64,000 nt of DNA from Synergistaceae bacterium. Its GTDB lineage: Bacteria; Synergistota; Synergistia; Synergistales; Synergistaceae. This document shows positions 47,962 through 54,439 of the stretch, piece after piece. A program made the translations under genes and the position numbers. The notes beneath the pieces were generated by a model, which ran no database searches, had not been told where the DNA came from, and saw nothing but the letters and a program-made list of their open reading frames with translations. The stretch spans positions 1-64,000 of the forward strand of contig JAUNJZ010000010.1 in assembly GCA_030533085.1 (NCBI GenBank), read 5' to 3'. The stretch's first letter is position 1, and each line of letters opens with the position of its first letter.

Positions 47962-47998
47962 AAAAAACAGCGGAGGGGGCTTTCCTCCGCTGTTTTTT
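47962..47998. terminator. bidirectional terminator between trmB and the MFS gene
   Basis: A perfect stem AAAACAGCGGAGG/CCTCCGCTGTTTT has A runs on one side and T runs on the other. It overlaps the stop codon of the minus-strand MFS gene at 47997. Confidence 0.9.
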
Positions 47999-49205
47999 AT
48001 CCGCGCCGCCTCTTTATCAGCTTCCTGCCGCCGTACCACAGCGCCACTGTCCACGGCAGAAAAGCCACCACATTCAGCGTAGCCTGAAGTCCGACCGCGT
48101 CCGCGATGATACCGACCGGCGTTACGAAAAGATTGGCGATCCCCCACGATACGCCGTTTGACAGCGAACTCACCATACTGCGCGAATCGGGGCAGCGCCT
48201 CTGCGCCATAGCCGTTGTGACCGGCGTGCTGGCCTGCAAAAAGGCGAAGCCAGCCATCAGCGAAAGCAGACAGAAAAAGCTCGAATCATGAAGGCCGACG
48301 ATAAGAAAAAAAGGAGCGATAGCAAGCGCCCAGAGAAGCACCTTCTCGTCGCCTATCATATCCGCGAGCTTCCCTCCCGCGATGCCGGCCAGCGTCGCCG
48401 AAAGCGTAACGGCGAAAAGCGTCATCCCCCCCGCCGCGATGCTGCTGCCGCGAGTGATAAGGAGCATCGGCAGGAATATCTTGATCGACTGAAAAACTGC
48501 GTCCCGAACGCTGGTTATTGAAACAATCCAGCCGACCTTTGAGACCAGATAGCGCAGATTCTCAAAAAAATGAGGGCGGGGAGAAGATTCCATATCCCGC
48601 ACCTTCTCCTCCGCGCTCGCCCCCATCTGACGCCAGATATAAAGACAAAGGAGCGCGACAGCGGGGATGATCGCGGCCGGGAAGCCGGGCTTGCCAAGAA
48701 TCGAAATCATAAAGACGACATAAATCGGCCCGATGGCGCTGCCGAAAGTGCCGCTGGCCTGAAAAAGGGAAAGATAAAAGGCAAGCGCGCCTCCGCCCGC
48801 CGCCGCGCCGCATCTGCCCGTCCCCTGCGGATGGAAAAGCGCTGTCCCAGCGCTCATCATACCCACGAATATAAAGGCTGCGCCGTAACTCGGCGAAAGC
48901 GGCAGCAGCGCCGCGCCGGAGACAGACAGCAGCGGCCCCCACACCGCAAGCCACGGACGCTTGAGCTTGTCCGCGACATAACCGGAGACTGGCTGGCCGA
49001 AAAGATTTGTAATGCCGAAAAGGGCGTTAAGAAAGCCGGCCTGACTCAACGTCAGCGATATAGACTGCGCCAGCATCGGTATCACAGTCGGCAGCGCGGT
49101 CGAATGCATATCATTCAGGCCATGCAGAAAAATTACACCAAGCAGCGTGCGTTTATTTTTCCCGGAAACAGCGCGTTTATCGTTACGGACAGATGACGAA
49201 TCCAT
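47997..49205 (-). CDS. major facilitator superfamily transporter, FSR-like
   Basis: About 402 residues and 12 predicted membrane helices. The start (GVIFLHGLNDMHSTALPTVIPML), the FGQPVSGYVADKLKRPWL loop between helices 2 and 3, and GTALFHPQGTGR resemble the fosmidomycin-resistance (FSR) branch of the superfamily, proton-driven exporters. The substrate cannot be told from sequence. GGAGG lies 8 nt before ATG 49205; the open frame to 49238 adds only an unlikely hydrophobic start. It diverges from rsmD. Confidence 0.85.
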   Translation of the reverse strand: MDSSSVRNDKRAVSGKNKRTLLGVIFLHGLNDMHSTALPTVIPMLAQSISLTLSQAGFLNALFGITNLFGQPVSGYVADKLKRPWLAVWGPLLSVSGAALLPLSPSYGAAFIFVGMMSAGTALFHPQGTGRCGAAAGGGALAFYLSLFQASGTFGSAIGPIYVVFMISILGKPGFPAAIIPAVALLCLYIWRQMGASAEEKVRDMESSPRPHFFENLRYLVSKVGWIVSITSVRDAVFQSIKIFLPMLLITRGSSIAAGGMTLFAVTLSATLAGIAGGKLADMIGDEKVLLWALAIAPFFLIVGLHDSSFFCLLSLMAGFAFLQASTPVTTAMAQRRCPDSRSMVSSLSNGVSWGIANLFVTPVGIIADAVGLQATLNVVAFLPWTVALWYGGRKLIKRRRG

Positions 49206-49287
49206 AAAAAAAACCTCCAAAATCCTTATATACATCAAAGCTATCCGCTATTATACTCTTTGTGTGAGGCGGCGGGGGGAATAAATC

Positions 49288-49785
49288 ATGAAAGAAATGA
49301 GACCGACGACCGGCAAAGTCATGCTGGCGCTATTCAACATATTGGGAAATATCCGCGGCAGAAGCTTCCTGGACCTCTTCTCAGGCAGCGGACAGATAGC
49401 GCTGACCGCCGCGAAAAAAGGCGCCGCCCCCGTAGTATGCGTTGAATCCGAGCGCGCACGCCACGCCGCTATTGTGAAAAAAGCGCCTGCCGATGTAAAA
49501 TGTCTCTGCGCCGACGTTCGCCGCGCCGTCGCCCGCATGGCGAAAAAGGGAGAATGCTTTGATATAATATTCGCCGACCCGCCATACAATCTTGGATGGG
49601 GCGAGGAACTTCCGCGGCTGCTCGCCGGTAACGAAAACATATCGGCCCCAGGCGGCGTTATAATCTTTGAACATTCGGAAGAGGAAGAGCCGGCCGCGAT
49701 GGATGAGACGAAATGGAAGCGCGAAGACAGAAAATACGGCGGCACAGTGCTCAGCTTCTACAGCAGGAGGAACGAAAATGATTAG
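49288..49785 (+). CDS. rsmD: 16S rRNA (guanine966-N2)-methyltransferase RsmD
   Basis: MRPTTGKVMLALFNILG matches the RPT-D-V-EALFNIL block that usually follows about 20 residues, so the N-terminus is short. FLDLFSGSGQIALTAAKKGA binds S-adenosylmethionine, and IIFADPPYNLGWGEE is the catalytic DPPY motif. It methylates 16S rRNA in the head of the 30S subunit. Overlap of 8 nt with coaD matches the widespread rsmD-coaD pair. An upstream start for the missing segment is not visible. Confidence 0.9.
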   Translation: MKEMRPTTGKVMLALFNILGNIRGRSFLDLFSGSGQIALTAAKKGAAPVVCVESERARHAAIVKKAPADVKCLCADVRRAVARMAKKGECFDIIFADPPYNLGWGEELPRLLAGNENISAPGGVIIFEHSEEEEPAAMDETKWKREDRKYGGTVLSFYSRRNEND

Positions 49786-50266
49786 AGCGATATATCCGGG
49801 TTCATTCGACCCGATAACAAACGGACATATATATATATCGGAACGGGCGGCGGCGCTCTTCGACGAGCTGATCGTCGCCGTACTCGTGAACCCCGAAAAA
49901 CGCTCCACCTTCAGCGAGGAAGAGCGGCAGATAATGGCGCGCGAGGCGCTCGTCCACCTGCCGAACGTCAAAGTGAAATACTTCAACGGCCTGCTGGTCG
50001 ACTTCATGCGCCAGCAGCAGAGCCGCATCATCATACGCGGCCTGCGCGCCCTCTCAGACTTTGAATACGAATTTCAGCTCGCGCAGATGAACCGCCAGCT
50101 CGCCCCGGAAATAGAAACCTTCTTCATCGTCACCGACGCGAAATACTCCTACCTCTCAAGCCGCGCGATAAAAGACGCCTTCCAATTCGGCGGCGCGGTG
50201 CGCGACATGGTCCCCCCCGGAGTCTACCGCCGCCTGCGCGAAAGAATACCGCCGAGGAATCTGTAA
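49778..50266 (+). CDS. coaD: phosphopantetheine adenylyltransferase
   Basis: At 162 residues it has YPGSFDPITNGHIYISERAA (HxGH-type nucleotidyltransferase site) and FFIVTDAKYSYLSSRAIKDAFQFGG at the C-terminus. It makes dephospho-CoA from phosphopantetheine and ATP. CAGGAGG inside rsmD lies 8-9 nt before ATG 49778. No clear T-tailed terminator follows; a long-range inverted repeat (GTGCCGG at 50295 and CCGGCAC at 50344) lies in the gap. Confidence 0.95.
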   Translation: MIRAIYPGSFDPITNGHIYISERAAALFDELIVAVLVNPEKRSTFSEEERQIMAREALVHLPNVKVKYFNGLLVDFMRQQQSRIIIRGLRALSDFEYEFQLAQMNRQLAPEIETFFIVTDAKYSYLSSRAIKDAFQFGGAVRDMVPPGVYRRLRERIPPRNL

Positions 50267-50427: not shown

Positions 50428-51147
50428 CTATAGGCCGTGGGTTGGTTTGTGCGTCACGGACGTTACTTTGCCGAGGACTTTAAACTCGCCGGCTAAGAGC
50501 TCTTCCAGAGAAATGTGTATCTTTGTGCCGTCGGTCGAAACCAGCTCGATGGAGCCATCATCGTTCTGGATGATCTTTTTTAAAGCCAGCTGCCTTTTGT
50601 AATAAACCAATGCAACGTCAAAGTCCAGCAGCTTTGCCTCTGGATTAACGATAATGCGGCTGTTTGCGGTGATGCCGTGAGCCGGTATGATGCCATCCGT
50701 TACCGTCAGGGCGAATGGGGCGTTATTTATGGAAAAATAACTACCTACATCCGCTTTAGGTACGCAGATAAGCCTCTCTGTAGCTTCACTGCGTGGCGTA
50801 GTGGAACACATTTCCAACAGTAAGCGCAGGGAAAAGTGTTGAATGATCACGTAGTCGACCTGATCTAAAGATTTTTCACGGCCGACAGGCACGCTTTCAT
50901 GCAAATTCAGACATTCTTCTGGAAGTTCCACACCGGCTGTCTCGCCCAGTAAATAGCTCACAGTTGTATTGAACTTTTTTGCGATATCCAACAGCAGCGC
51001 ATTGGATGGAACTTTCTTGCCGCGCTCTATTTCGCTTAAGTAAGCCTGCGTAATATTAAGGATTTCTGCTATTTCACTTTGTGTTCGGCTACCGCGGAGC
51101 GCACGTATTCGATCAGAGAGTATCTTATAATTCTTTTTCATTGTCAT
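50428..51147 (-). CDS. XRE-type repressor with an S24-like C-terminal domain, catalytic Ser missing
   Basis: A helix-turn-helix (residues 8-66: LSDRIRALRGSRTQSEIAEILNITQAYLSEIERGKKVPS) is followed by a C-terminal LexA/CI-like fold. Where S24 proteins carry GDSM, this one reads VTDGIIP, so the autocleavage Ser is absent, although a LALKK segment is kept. It probably acts as a non-cleavable regulator responding to another signal. No ribosome binding site precedes ATG, so the transcript may be leaderless. It diverges from a surface-protein gene across three TAGCTA sites, suggesting direct control of both. Confidence 0.8.
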   Translation of the reverse strand: MTMKKNYKILSDRIRALRGSRTQSEIAEILNITQAYLSEIERGKKVPSNALLLDIAKKFNTTVSYLLGETAGVELPEECLNLHESVPVGREKSLDQVDYVIIQHFSLRLLLEMCSTTPRSEATERLICVPKADVGSYFSINNAPFALTVTDGIIPAHGITANSRIIVNPEAKLLDFDVALVYYKRQLALKKIIQNDDGSIELVSTDGTKIHISLEELLAGEFKVLGKVTSVTHKPTHGL

Positions 51148-51185
51148 ACTATAATCTAGAAAATATAGCCCACATAGTGTATATA

Positions 51186-51231
51186 TAGCTAAAAATAGCT
51201 ACAAGAGTTGACATAAAATTTCTGTTAGCTA
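51186..51231. promoter_or_regulatory. three phased TAGCTA sites, candidate operators
   Basis: The palindromic hexamer TAGCTA occurs at 51186, 51196 and 51226. The intervals of 10 and 30 bp place all three on the same face of the helix. The last one overlaps the -10 element of the rightward promoter. Confidence 0.55.
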
Positions 51232-51235
51232 TAAT
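51208..51235 (+). promoter_or_regulatory. promoter of the Synerg-CTERM surface protein gene
   Basis: TTGACA (51208-51213) and TATAAT (51230-51235) are separated by 16 nt, a perfect match to both consensus hexamers. The start codon is about 54 nt downstream of the -10 element. Confidence 0.75.
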
Positions 51236-51288
51236 AAATATCTGATGTTGCTTTGGGTAAATTTATATACTGAAGGGAGTAAGCAATA

Positions 51289-53133
51289 ATGAGAAATGTT
51301 GTCCGAGGTCATGATAGTTTGTCTGTTGTTAAGGTATGGATATGTCTGTTGGCGGCAGTGGCGCTGTGTCTTGTATCTTCTGCTTCTTACGCGAGCATTA
51401 TAAACAGTAACGGCACCAGAAGGTACGTTATCAATGGCGACCATACGTGGGGGTTGTGGAATATTCAGGATGAAGCTATTTCTTCTCTGACTGTAAATGA
51501 TGGTTCAAGCCTAAGGTTATTTTTGGGCGAAGCTGAACCGGGGATATATTGTATCGGCAATATCTACGGGGACGGTAATCTTGAAATATCGGGCGGCGGG
51601 CGGTTATGTGGTGATTATGGCATAGTGGGGCAAGAAGCAAGACTGGTGTCCTATAATGTTTACGGACTTAAAAGCATTAATAGCATAACTCTTACGGCTT
51701 CAGGCATTCTGCCTGGACTCTTTATTTTCCAAGCTTTTCCATATGATAATACCAATTCATATAGGTCTGTTTCGTTGGACAGGCAGATACTCGTCGTTGA
51801 TAATGTAAGGCAGTCTGCGCAGTCTGACATGGAGTCTACCTTCTGTGCGACTGGAGGATATATGAATAAGGATATCTCTATTAACGGTGGCGTGTCCATG
51901 TCGCTTAACAGCAGCGATTTTGCATCCGCCTCCTTAGGCGGTTTTTCAAATGGTTCTTTAAATATAGTTGGCGACAGCGAAATATCAGTAGTCAGTTCCA
52001 CTGTCAAAAATTATTCCGTGAGCAAACAGGTTGGTGGTGTTGGCGCAGTGATTGCAGGCGGAGCTAGTGTCAGTATGTACGATTCCGTTGCGGCATCAAC
52101 CCAAACAGAGATCCTCGGTGATTCTAAATTTGTTCTTAAAGGACAGAGCCGCATAATAGCTAAGGATGTTACGGTCGCCTCAGAGGGGACATTGGAGGGC
52201 TACTTAGGCGTAAATGCAGCTGGACCTGCGATTGGCACGTCAAAGCTGTGGAAAGCGGTATCAGAGGTGGACAGCTCTTATATTGAAATATCGGGGATAT
52301 CATTTACGGGTACTGGAAAACATTATCTGTCTGTCTGCGGCGGAGGTTCTGCCATAACGTATGGCGGTGGTGAAGGAATAAACCTCGTGCAGTCTCCCGG
52401 CAGCGCAGAAAATAAAATACGGGGAGCCTCGGAGATAGTCATAATTGGAGACGCCGCTTTTTCCGGCTTGCGCCGCGGCTATGTTTATTGCGGAGGAACA
52501 GTTTGTGGAGAACGTGCCTCAAGCACTGTTGGCAGCGCGCTGCTTATATTTAAAGATATAGACGCGCGGAATATTCAAGAGTCATTCTCAGGAGTGCTAT
52601 CAGGGCAGGGGTGGAGAACTGAATATCCCACAGGAGATCCTCTCGCTCCTGTGACTACCGATTACACGGATTCCGTTCTCGGCGACAGCGTGCTTATGCT
52701 CGACAACGTGAAGGCTGACATCTCTTCCAGTGACGTTAATGTAAAATATTTCGACGAGATCATTCTAAAAAATAACAGTTCCGTAAAGATGACTACATTT
52801 GACAGCGACCTCAAAAAAGTGACGGTCTCCGGCAGCTGGAGTTCAGCCAGCGGTTCAGTCGATGCCTTGACTTTCAAGGAAGAAGTGAAAAACAGGGATA
52901 TGATAGTTGTAACTGTCGAAGCTGACGCTGTTGCCTCAGGCGTAACGAAAGCAGCCTGGTCTGACGACGGTATGAGGTTGATTGTATATACGGCAGGCTC
53001 TCAACCGCCAACGCCATCAGATGGTGGCTCTGGCGGCGGATGCAGCGCTGGGTGCGGAGTGCTGGCTGTATTTGCGTTTATGGGAATTCCTGCCGTAATC
53101 ACAGCCATAAAAAAATTTAAGCGCTTTGTGTAA
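51289..53133 (+). CDS. secreted surface protein with a Synerg-CTERM-like sorting signal
   Basis: A signal peptide (residues 1-36, ending SSASYA) precedes about 530 residues of beta-rich, Gly/Ser/Val-rich sequence resembling a beta-helix or autotransporter-like passenger. The C-terminus is PSDGGSGGGCSAGCGV, then a hydrophobic helix, then KKFKRFV, the pattern of the Synerg-CTERM sorting domain of Synergistota. It should be exported and processed at the envelope. No catalytic motif is visible; adhesin is a possible role. AAGGGAG precedes ATG. A hairpin follows. Its repressor is divergent. Confidence 0.78.
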   Translation: MRNVVRGHDSLSVVKVWICLLAAVALCLVSSASYASIINSNGTRRYVINGDHTWGLWNIQDEAISSLTVNDGSSLRLFLGEAEPGIYCIGNIYGDGNLEISGGGRLCGDYGIVGQEARLVSYNVYGLKSINSITLTASGILPGLFIFQAFPYDNTNSYRSVSLDRQILVVDNVRQSAQSDMESTFCATGGYMNKDISINGGVSMSLNSSDFASASLGGFSNGSLNIVGDSEISVVSSTVKNYSVSKQVGGVGAVIAGGASVSMYDSVAASTQTEILGDSKFVLKGQSRIIAKDVTVASEGTLEGYLGVNAAGPAIGTSKLWKAVSEVDSSYIEISGISFTGTGKHYLSVCGGGSAITYGGGEGINLVQSPGSAENKIRGASEIVIIGDAAFSGLRRGYVYCGGTVCGERASSTVGSALLIFKDIDARNIQESFSGVLSGQGWRTEYPTGDPLAPVTTDYTDSVLGDSVLMLDNVKADISSSDVNVKYFDEIILKNNSSVKMTTFDSDLKKVTVSGSWSSASGSVDALTFKEEVKNRDMIVVTVEADAVASGVTKAAWSDDGMRLIVYTAGSQPPTPSDGGSGGGCSAGCGVLAVFAFMGIPAVITAIKKFKRFV

Positions 53134-53227: not shown

Positions 53228-54439
53228 TCAGACAATGATTATCCGCCTTTTGTGTTCTTCGCCGGGGCGGCCGTTTGGTATCAGCTCTTCCCATAATTCG
53301 CAGGCCAACGCCTCGAAGCGCGCCGTTTCCGCGGCGTAACGCGACAGCCGCGCCGCTTTGCCGTAGGTCGTCACGATTGGCAGGGCTGCACGCTCTCTCA
53401 TTTCGTGGAGCAGCTTGCGCCCTTTTTCGTTCATTCCGAGGACGCGGATGTACGGCGGGCCGAGGCGCTGTGCGGCGCGGTTTGTCCAGTGGTCCAGCCC
53501 CAGCAGGATATGTATCGCGGCGCGTCTGATACGCCCGGCGGGGTAGCGTTTCGATGTGCAGGCAGCGAGCCATTCGCTGAAGCTTTTTGAGCTTATGGCC
53601 GCCTCTTTCATTTTAAATTCTATTCCTTCACTGATTTCGGCGATGCCGCCCAATTCACGTGGCGAGGCGCGCAGCAATGAGGCGCGCAGAATTTTCCACA
53701 GAGCGTCGTCGTTGGCGCAGATGCGTCCCTCGTCGATTTTTTTTCTTAATATTGCAGCCGCGGGGGCCGGCATTTTGTCCAGCGCTGCTTCCATGTTTCC
53801 GCTTTTTATCGCCTTTCTGATTGCGGCGGCGCTTGGTATTTCGCTCAGCTCCGCGCTGTTGTAGGCCGAGCCTGTTCTCAGCAGCGGCATAGGCGTTATC
53901 GCGTATTTTTTTTGCTTTATGCGCGCCATGTATGATAAGGCGAGTATGTTATTGCTGCCCGCAAATATGGCCGCGCTGCCCTGTATGGCCTCTTCCGCCG
54001 CGCGCGCGCGCGCCTCGACGAATGAGAGGCCTGAGTTCAGATTTTTTTTCAATGACTGCTTGAAAGCTTCCGGCTCTTCTAGTAGAATATTAATGATGTT
54101 GTCCGAGAGGCAATGAGGGTTTTCTGCGCCAAAAGAAAGGTGTGTGACGCTTTGCGTGGCGGCGAGTATGTCTACAGCGCCGTTTGCGAAAACGCCCGCA
54201 TTGTGCGCTGAAAATGTGACGGGCAGCTCGAGCGCCAGATCGACGCCGCAGGAGAGGGCCATTTCGGCTCTCGTCCATTTATCGGCAAGCGCCGCTTCTC
54301 CGCGCTGGACGAAATTTGACGAGAGTACGACGACTACGGCTTCGGCGCGGCAGAGTTCGCGGGCTTTTTCGATGTGGTAGATGTGCCCTTTATGAAGAGG
54401 GTTGTATTCGGCAATAATCCCGGCTGCGGGATATAGCAT
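53228..54439 (-). CDS. tmcAL: tRNA(Met) cytidine acetate ligase
   Basis: About 403 residues. The N-terminal nucleotidyltransferase site reads GIIAEYNPLHKGHIYHI, with LSSNFVQRGEAALADKWTRAEMAL and ELPVTFSAHNAGVFA, all hallmarks of TmcAL (YlbM/DUF795). The enzyme uses acetate and ATP to acetylate C34 of elongator tRNA(Met). It lies back to back with ackA, which links acetate to acetyl phosphate and ATP; in many Firmicutes it is near ackA or the YceD gene. ATG 54439. Confidence 0.92.
   Translation of the reverse strand: MLYPAAGIIAEYNPLHKGHIYHIEKARELCRAEAVVVVLSSNFVQRGEAALADKWTRAEMALSCGVDLALELPVTFSAHNAGVFANGAVDILAATQSVTHLSFGAENPHCLSDNIINILLEEPEAFKQSLKKNLNSGLSFVEARARAAEEAIQGSAAIFAGSNNILALSYMARIKQKKYAITPMPLLRTGSAYNSAELSEIPSAAAIRKAIKSGNMEAALDKMPAPAAAILRKKIDEGRICANDDALWKILRASLLRASPRELGGIAEISEGIEFKMKEAAISSKSFSEWLAACTSKRYPAGRIRRAAIHILLGLDHWTNRAAQRLGPPYIRVLGMNEKGRKLLHEMRERAALPIVTTYGKAARLSRYAAETARFEALACELWEELIPNGRPGEEHKRRIIIV

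Follow-up and report, generated by a model that had tools for sequence, protein, structure and literature searches.

The window, a 64,000-nucleotide stretch of a Synergistaceae genome, carries two divergently transcribed genes, REP and SYN, that face away from each other across a common control region (Table 1). REP encodes a helix-turn-helix regulator, and SYN encodes a predicted secreted protein. The pair is bounded on the left by coaD and on the right by a gene that we take, by recognition, to be tmcAL-like. Apart from REP itself, no phage gene lies between coaD and tmcAL in the window.

Table 1. Features of the REP–SYN island and its boundaries, in window coordinates.
Feature	Position	Strand	Description
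coaD, left flank	49781-50266	+	island boundary; 96% identical in G013
REP	50428-51147	-	XRE helix-turn-helix and S24/LexA-like domain; start at 51147 or 51141
Common control region REP/SYN	51148-51288		aligns with the control region of cI and cro in Synergistaceae prophages
TAGC half-site	51166-51169		occupies the repressor-proximal operator position; overlies a possible REP -10
TAGCTAAAAATAGCTA	51186-51201		pair of hexamers with 10-bp spacing, reading TAGC-N8-GCTA, upstream of the -35
SYN promoter TTGACA-16-TATAAT	51208-51235	+	TTGACA at 51208, TATAAT at 51230; 12/12 consensus match
Candidate degenerate operator ATTTCTGTTAGCTAT	51218-51232		overlaps the SYN -10; two mismatches in eight half-site bases
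Third TAGCTA	51226-51231		right half of the -10 operator; two-base overlap with TATAAT
SYN	51289-53133	+	predicted secreted, beta-rich, 614 aa; tail resembling Synerg-CTERM, with GGGCSAG, a hydrophobic stretch, and a basic end
Perfect inverted repeat TTATCGGCGGCGG...CCGCCGCCGATAA	53149-53182		between SYN and tmcAL, terminator-like; read from the sequence
tmcAL-like gene, right flank	53228-54439	-	island boundary

In most family genomes with an assembled junction, tmcAL closely adjoins coaD. The first-pass annotation had described an island between housekeeping genes, and the junction is indeed empty in most relatives where it is resolved. REP–SYN is found there, in the same divergent orientation, only in the window genome and in G013, a member of another genus; the gene pair, expected to stay together in other Synergistota, is thus adjacent in the only other genome with orthologs of both genes. 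Identity between these two genomes is 49% for REP and 41–43% for SYN, compared with 68–96% for the flanks, and both genes have a G+C content of 0.46–0.47 in both genomes, compared with 0.56–0.65 for the flanks. The flanking genes place the window nearer to G015 and G029, both of which have no REP–SYN at the junction, indicating that the island is either ancient with losses or horizontally exchanged at this site. A lone papain/lectin-like gene with Synerg-CTERM-like features occupies the same junction in G028, which belongs to the genus of G013. In G015, a short exported ORF and a subtilase whose tail is Synerg-CTERM-like stand opposite the REP relative, so that the same kind of control module is attached there to another exported protein.

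REP matches the Pfam families HTH_3 (6e-11) and Peptidase_S24 (1e-4; 22.3 bits, slightly below the cut-off of 23.3). An AlphaFold model built from five sequences (pLDDT 74) shows the LexA/CI C-terminal fold, with Foldseek matches to the lambda-186 hybrid repressor (E 6e-8), LexA (E 1e-6), and lambda CI, and REP is accordingly a CI/LexA-fold repressor. In an alignment with Synergistota homologs, the S24 nucleophile serine is absent from REP both at and beside its position. The serine of the G-[DE]-S-M motif is likewise missing in the relatives from G013, G015, and G009, and across these four proteins its place is taken by Ile, Asn, Asp, or His. The catalytic lysine is retained (LALKK in REP; present in five of five clade members), and the REP hinge (LLLEMCSTTP) contains neither an Ala-Gly nor a Cys-Gly scissile bond, compared with CCGNG in a prophage relative. 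The replacement of GDSM by TDGI proposed earlier is right as to the loss of the serine but not as to its register: aligned on neighboring conserved residues, the stretch reads DGII, so that serine is replaced by isoleucine, not glycine. The proposed lack of a cleavable domain agrees with the loss of the catalytic serine, seen in the alignment and in the residue check on the tree described below, and this loss would make REP non-cleavable.

SYN has no Pfam match. Its model is beta-rich (mean pLDDT 64), with helices at 11–28 and 600–610 and weak matches to beta-helix proteins; assignment to a specific fold was rejected, the best Foldseek hit having an E value of 8e-3 on a low-confidence model. 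The sequence and model display a signal-like N-terminus, a GGGC-x-AG motif, a C-terminal hydrophobic stretch, and a basic tail. SYN had been described as a Synerg-CTERM secreted protein divergent from the regulator. The divergent arrangement stands, but membership in Synerg-CTERM (TIGR04564) does not, as its scores of 15.7 bits (genome scan) and 7.4 bits (hmmscan) both fall under the curated cut-off of 22.5, even though the motif, hydrophobic stretch, and basic tail are all present; its G013 ortholog scores 19.0. The signal-like N-terminus, the hydrophobic tail, and the low-confidence beta-rich model suggest that SYN is a surface or envelope protein. The terminator scan did not pick up the inverted repeat downstream of SYN. 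Behind SYN in G013 come a CsgG-family gene and a gene for a small exported protein (L069:5010-6565), suggestive of an export operon.

The control region contains a single 12/12 promoter match, the perfect TATAAT placed 16 nt from TTGACA and overlapped by the last TAGCTA, exactly as first annotated. The form TTGAC[AT]-16-TA[TA]AAT, with its 16-nt spacing, is kept in G013 and G015. The three TAGCTA hexamers were also correctly placed, at 51186, 51196, and 51226, with spacings of 10 and 30 bp. Three copies in a 141-bp intergenic region exceed the 0.38 expected (P about 0.0014 in dinucleotide shuffles), and with six copies in the window against 10.6 expected, the hexamer is not generally common. 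Paired TAGCTA copies 3–30 bp apart occur nowhere else in the 2.63-Mb genome, in which a reversed control pattern was matched once per strand, and the G015 region has two copies 30 bp apart, like the window.

The hexamer itself is nonetheless unlikely to be the operator unit. Across the control regions of the window, G013, G015, and two prophages, the enriched element is the dyad TAGC-N5-GCTA, with five exact sites against 0.03 expected; when up to one mismatch is allowed, eleven sites are present against 0.69 expected (shuffle maximum 3 in 200). No spacing other than N5 stands out in these five regions. This 13-bp dyad, and not TAGCTA, is the candidate operator of the group; the window hexamers appear to be half-site remnants of it, and the suggested three palindromes on one helical face are therefore not a conserved feature. 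What the relatives conserve instead is a layout of three sites, located just upstream of the -35, across the -10, and across the promoter of the repressor itself. In the alignment of the five regions, these appear as a TAGC half-site 12–15 bp before the -35, a dyad over the -10, and a dyad over the repressor promoter. The repressor-proximal operator is an exact TAGC-N5-GCTA in G013 and has one mismatch in G015.

All eleven dyad sites lie in the relatives and none in the window, which has no exact TAGC-N5-GCTA in its control region and retains half-sites together with a single degenerate dyad that covers the SYN -10. This candidate scores 11.0 bits, the fifth best of 64,000 window positions, against a position weight matrix derived from the same control regions that had yielded the motif. 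It is the best site of the window control region; about 2.5 sites scoring 10.5 bits or more are expected per 64 kb. No clear operator is present in the control region of the G009 member. A phylum-wide search with the promoter pattern returned mostly unrelated single matches. Elsewhere in the window, a strong operator-like dyad (AAAGCTATCCGCTAT, 49237-49251; 16.5 bits, 0.05 expected per 64 kb) lies at a TATAAT that precedes an MFS transporter gene (47997-49208, minus strand). It was dropped as a second target because the MFS loci of relatives, including that of G015, do not contain it.

In a tree of 36 S24-type repressors, the four serine-less chromosomal members (window, G013, G015, and G009) group together with moderate support (94/66). 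The CI protein of a Synergistaceae prophage in G007, which has the serine (GESM), is the sister or outgroup to these four (97/98 for the five) and the nearest serine-bearing relative of REP. The loci in G007 and G025 are both prophages with terminase and head genes, accompanied by tail genes and a Rha/KilAC antirepressor in G007 and by a portal gene in G025. Their CI proteins resemble REP in a near-identical recognition helix (ITQAYxSE), common operator dyads, and an alignable control region; the local alignment score between the window region and that of the G007 prophage is reached by 0 of 300 shuffles, and that with G025 by 1 of 300. They differ from REP in keeping the serine (GESM/GDSM), in having a cro-like gene opposite, and in lying within prophages. 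The first-pass description of a system with no prophage thus holds for the locus but not for the repressor, which is of phage ancestry. Close relatives of REP were found in none of the viral contigs, phage records, and plasmids searched, where matches reached the HTH level only, and a scan of genome contigs returned the G009 MAG as the only true relative.

The S24 domain of the G025 CI groups elsewhere in the tree, apart from the REP clade. The two prophages (L204 and L205) thus have near-identical HTH domains and operators, yet their S24 domains lie apart, which suggests domain swapping in CI. A 152-aa REP paralog in the window genome (G000:C63:19010-19279; L082:8843-9301) has nearly the same recognition helix (ITQAYLCEIE) and no S24 domain, and could compete for REP sites. 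Similar short forms occur in G029 and in G009:C90, the latter in divergent orientation to a Synerg-CTERM match. Further S24-type repressors with an intact GDSM motif are encoded in the window genome at G000:C64 and G000:C42 (L080 and L081), near genes that by eye look like those of mobile elements (integrase-like, HicA/HicB-like, and resolvase-like).

Taken together, REP–SYN is probably a captured phage CI repressor–operator module that regulates itself and represses a beta-rich envelope protein, and that is probably not SOS-inducible. A phage CI repressor and its operators would have been captured by the host as one module, giving rise to REP and its control region. REP dimers would bind TAGC-N5-GCTA-type sites, one over the SYN -10, one just upstream of the -35, and one over the REP promoter; sites so placed would let REP repress both SYN and itself, autoregulation being read solely from operator positions. 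With the S24 nucleophile lost, REP should not self-cleave with RecA, which would uncouple SYN from DNA damage. Derepression of SYN would then have to follow another cue; a ligand or an antirepressor could provide it, as could dilution and noise where the operator is weak. Weighing against a captured module are the degenerate window sites, the G009 region with its lack of a clear operator, and the restriction of the pair to two genomes. Of the CI-like switch first envisaged, the anatomy of the control region survives, but a switch in the sense of bistability does not, as no cro equivalent remains.

REP could instead be an ordinary local XRE autoregulator that was never captured with its operators, its likeness to prophage CI reflecting AT-rich promoters and a common XRE origin. 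It is common for XRE regulators to diverge from the genes that they control, no clear operator is present at the G009 relative, and XRE proteins of about 130 aa without an S24 domain also stand divergent to Synerg-CTERM genes. We consider this account unlikely, given that the whole control region aligns with that of a prophage at a score no shuffle reaches, that the common dyad recurs at matching positions, and that the tree places REP beside a prophage CI. The recognition helix that REP has in common with Synergistaceae prophages raises a different prospect, namely that REP is a domesticated, SOS-blind immunity repressor that holds SYN off and also shuts down the lytic promoter of incoming phages that carry TAGC-N5-GCTA operators. 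This is rather improbable; if true, the surface protein of the host would in turn be reset by the CI or antirepressor of such phages, and envelope display would be tied to phage infection.

It is quite improbable that REP has remained damage-responsive, through in-trans cleavage by another S24 protease or RecA-independent proteolysis, which would make SYN an SOS-type gene. Retention of the lysine in all members, the three intact GDSM repressors in the same genome, and the serine kept in other S24-type divergent pairs (G029 and G006) are compatible with this idea, against which stand the missing nucleophile and a hinge in which the prophage Cys-Gly (CCGNG) has become C-S. Least probable is that REP–SYN is what a decayed prophage left behind, that it no longer has a part in regulation, and that the window operators are in decay. 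Low G+C content, degenerate window operators, and a REP–SYN identity well below that of the flanks would all suit a remnant, but two genera have both ORFs intact, the promoter matches the consensus perfectly, and the stretch between coaD and tmcAL has no other phage gene.

The captured-module interpretation of REP–SYN sits within a wider pattern. Among the matches listed for twelve family genomes (114 Synerg-CTERM and 81 HTH_3 genes), at least six divergent pairs have the HTH_3 gene within 1.5 kb upstream of the Synerg-CTERM gene, against 0.26 expected, and none is in the same orientation. Some of the six are mutually orthologous (e.g., G015 and G029), making the independent cases fewer, perhaps four. 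The Synerg-CTERM partners include papain/lectin-like, Big_2, and cohesin-domain proteins. Two further S24-type divergent pairs, in G029 and G006, keep the serine, and the G006 pair is among the six. Two more pairs in the window genome (G000:C31:16460-18643, L195; G000:C67:16559-17540, L083) consist of an XRE gene of about 130 aa back-to-back with a Synerg-CTERM or Synerg-CTERM-like gene. The literature searched yielded no mention of Synerg-CTERM, and XRE genes back-to-back with exported Synerg-CTERM proteins of papain, Big_2, and other types are apparently undescribed there. If the pattern holds, surface display in the phylum of the Synergistaceae would be set by many small local repressor units and not by a global regulator.

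Several known systems resemble parts of this arrangement. Among solved chains, the HTH domain of DdrO from Deinococcus is the best match to that of REP. DdrO is, like REP, an XRE repressor; it is not known to carry an S24 domain, and the IrrE protease eliminates it. The CI/Cro switches of lambda, 434, and 186 have in common with REP–SYN the repressor fold, divergent promoters, and operators, candidate ones at REP–SYN, over the -10/-35 and the repressor's own promoter. In contrast to them, the REP locus has no cro, no phage genes, and apparently no cleavable domain; the opposing second repressor is absent, and SYN takes the place of a small HTH protein as the divergent partner.

By analogy, the nearest precedent is FddR of Francisella, a captured, autoregulated phage repressor with a divergent target, which is cleavable and damage-responsive (PMC13148647). 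Both combine a host-captured phage repressor, a divergently transcribed target, and a palindromic motif, and the REP locus matches FddR in being a divergent unit of phage-repressor ancestry at a host locus devoid of phage genes. Such self-contained divergent units have been argued to spread laterally (PMC13148647). FddR keeps all cleavage residues, and its motif is GTG-N11-CAC (PMC13148647), whereas REP lacks the nucleophile serine, the motif is TAGC-N5-GCTA, and the partner is a predicted envelope protein. What appears new relative to FddR is a serine-less member tied to such a protein: a traceable capture of a phage repressor and its operators as a unit, apparently stripped of the SOS trigger and attached to a predicted envelope gene, in a phylum with little genetics.
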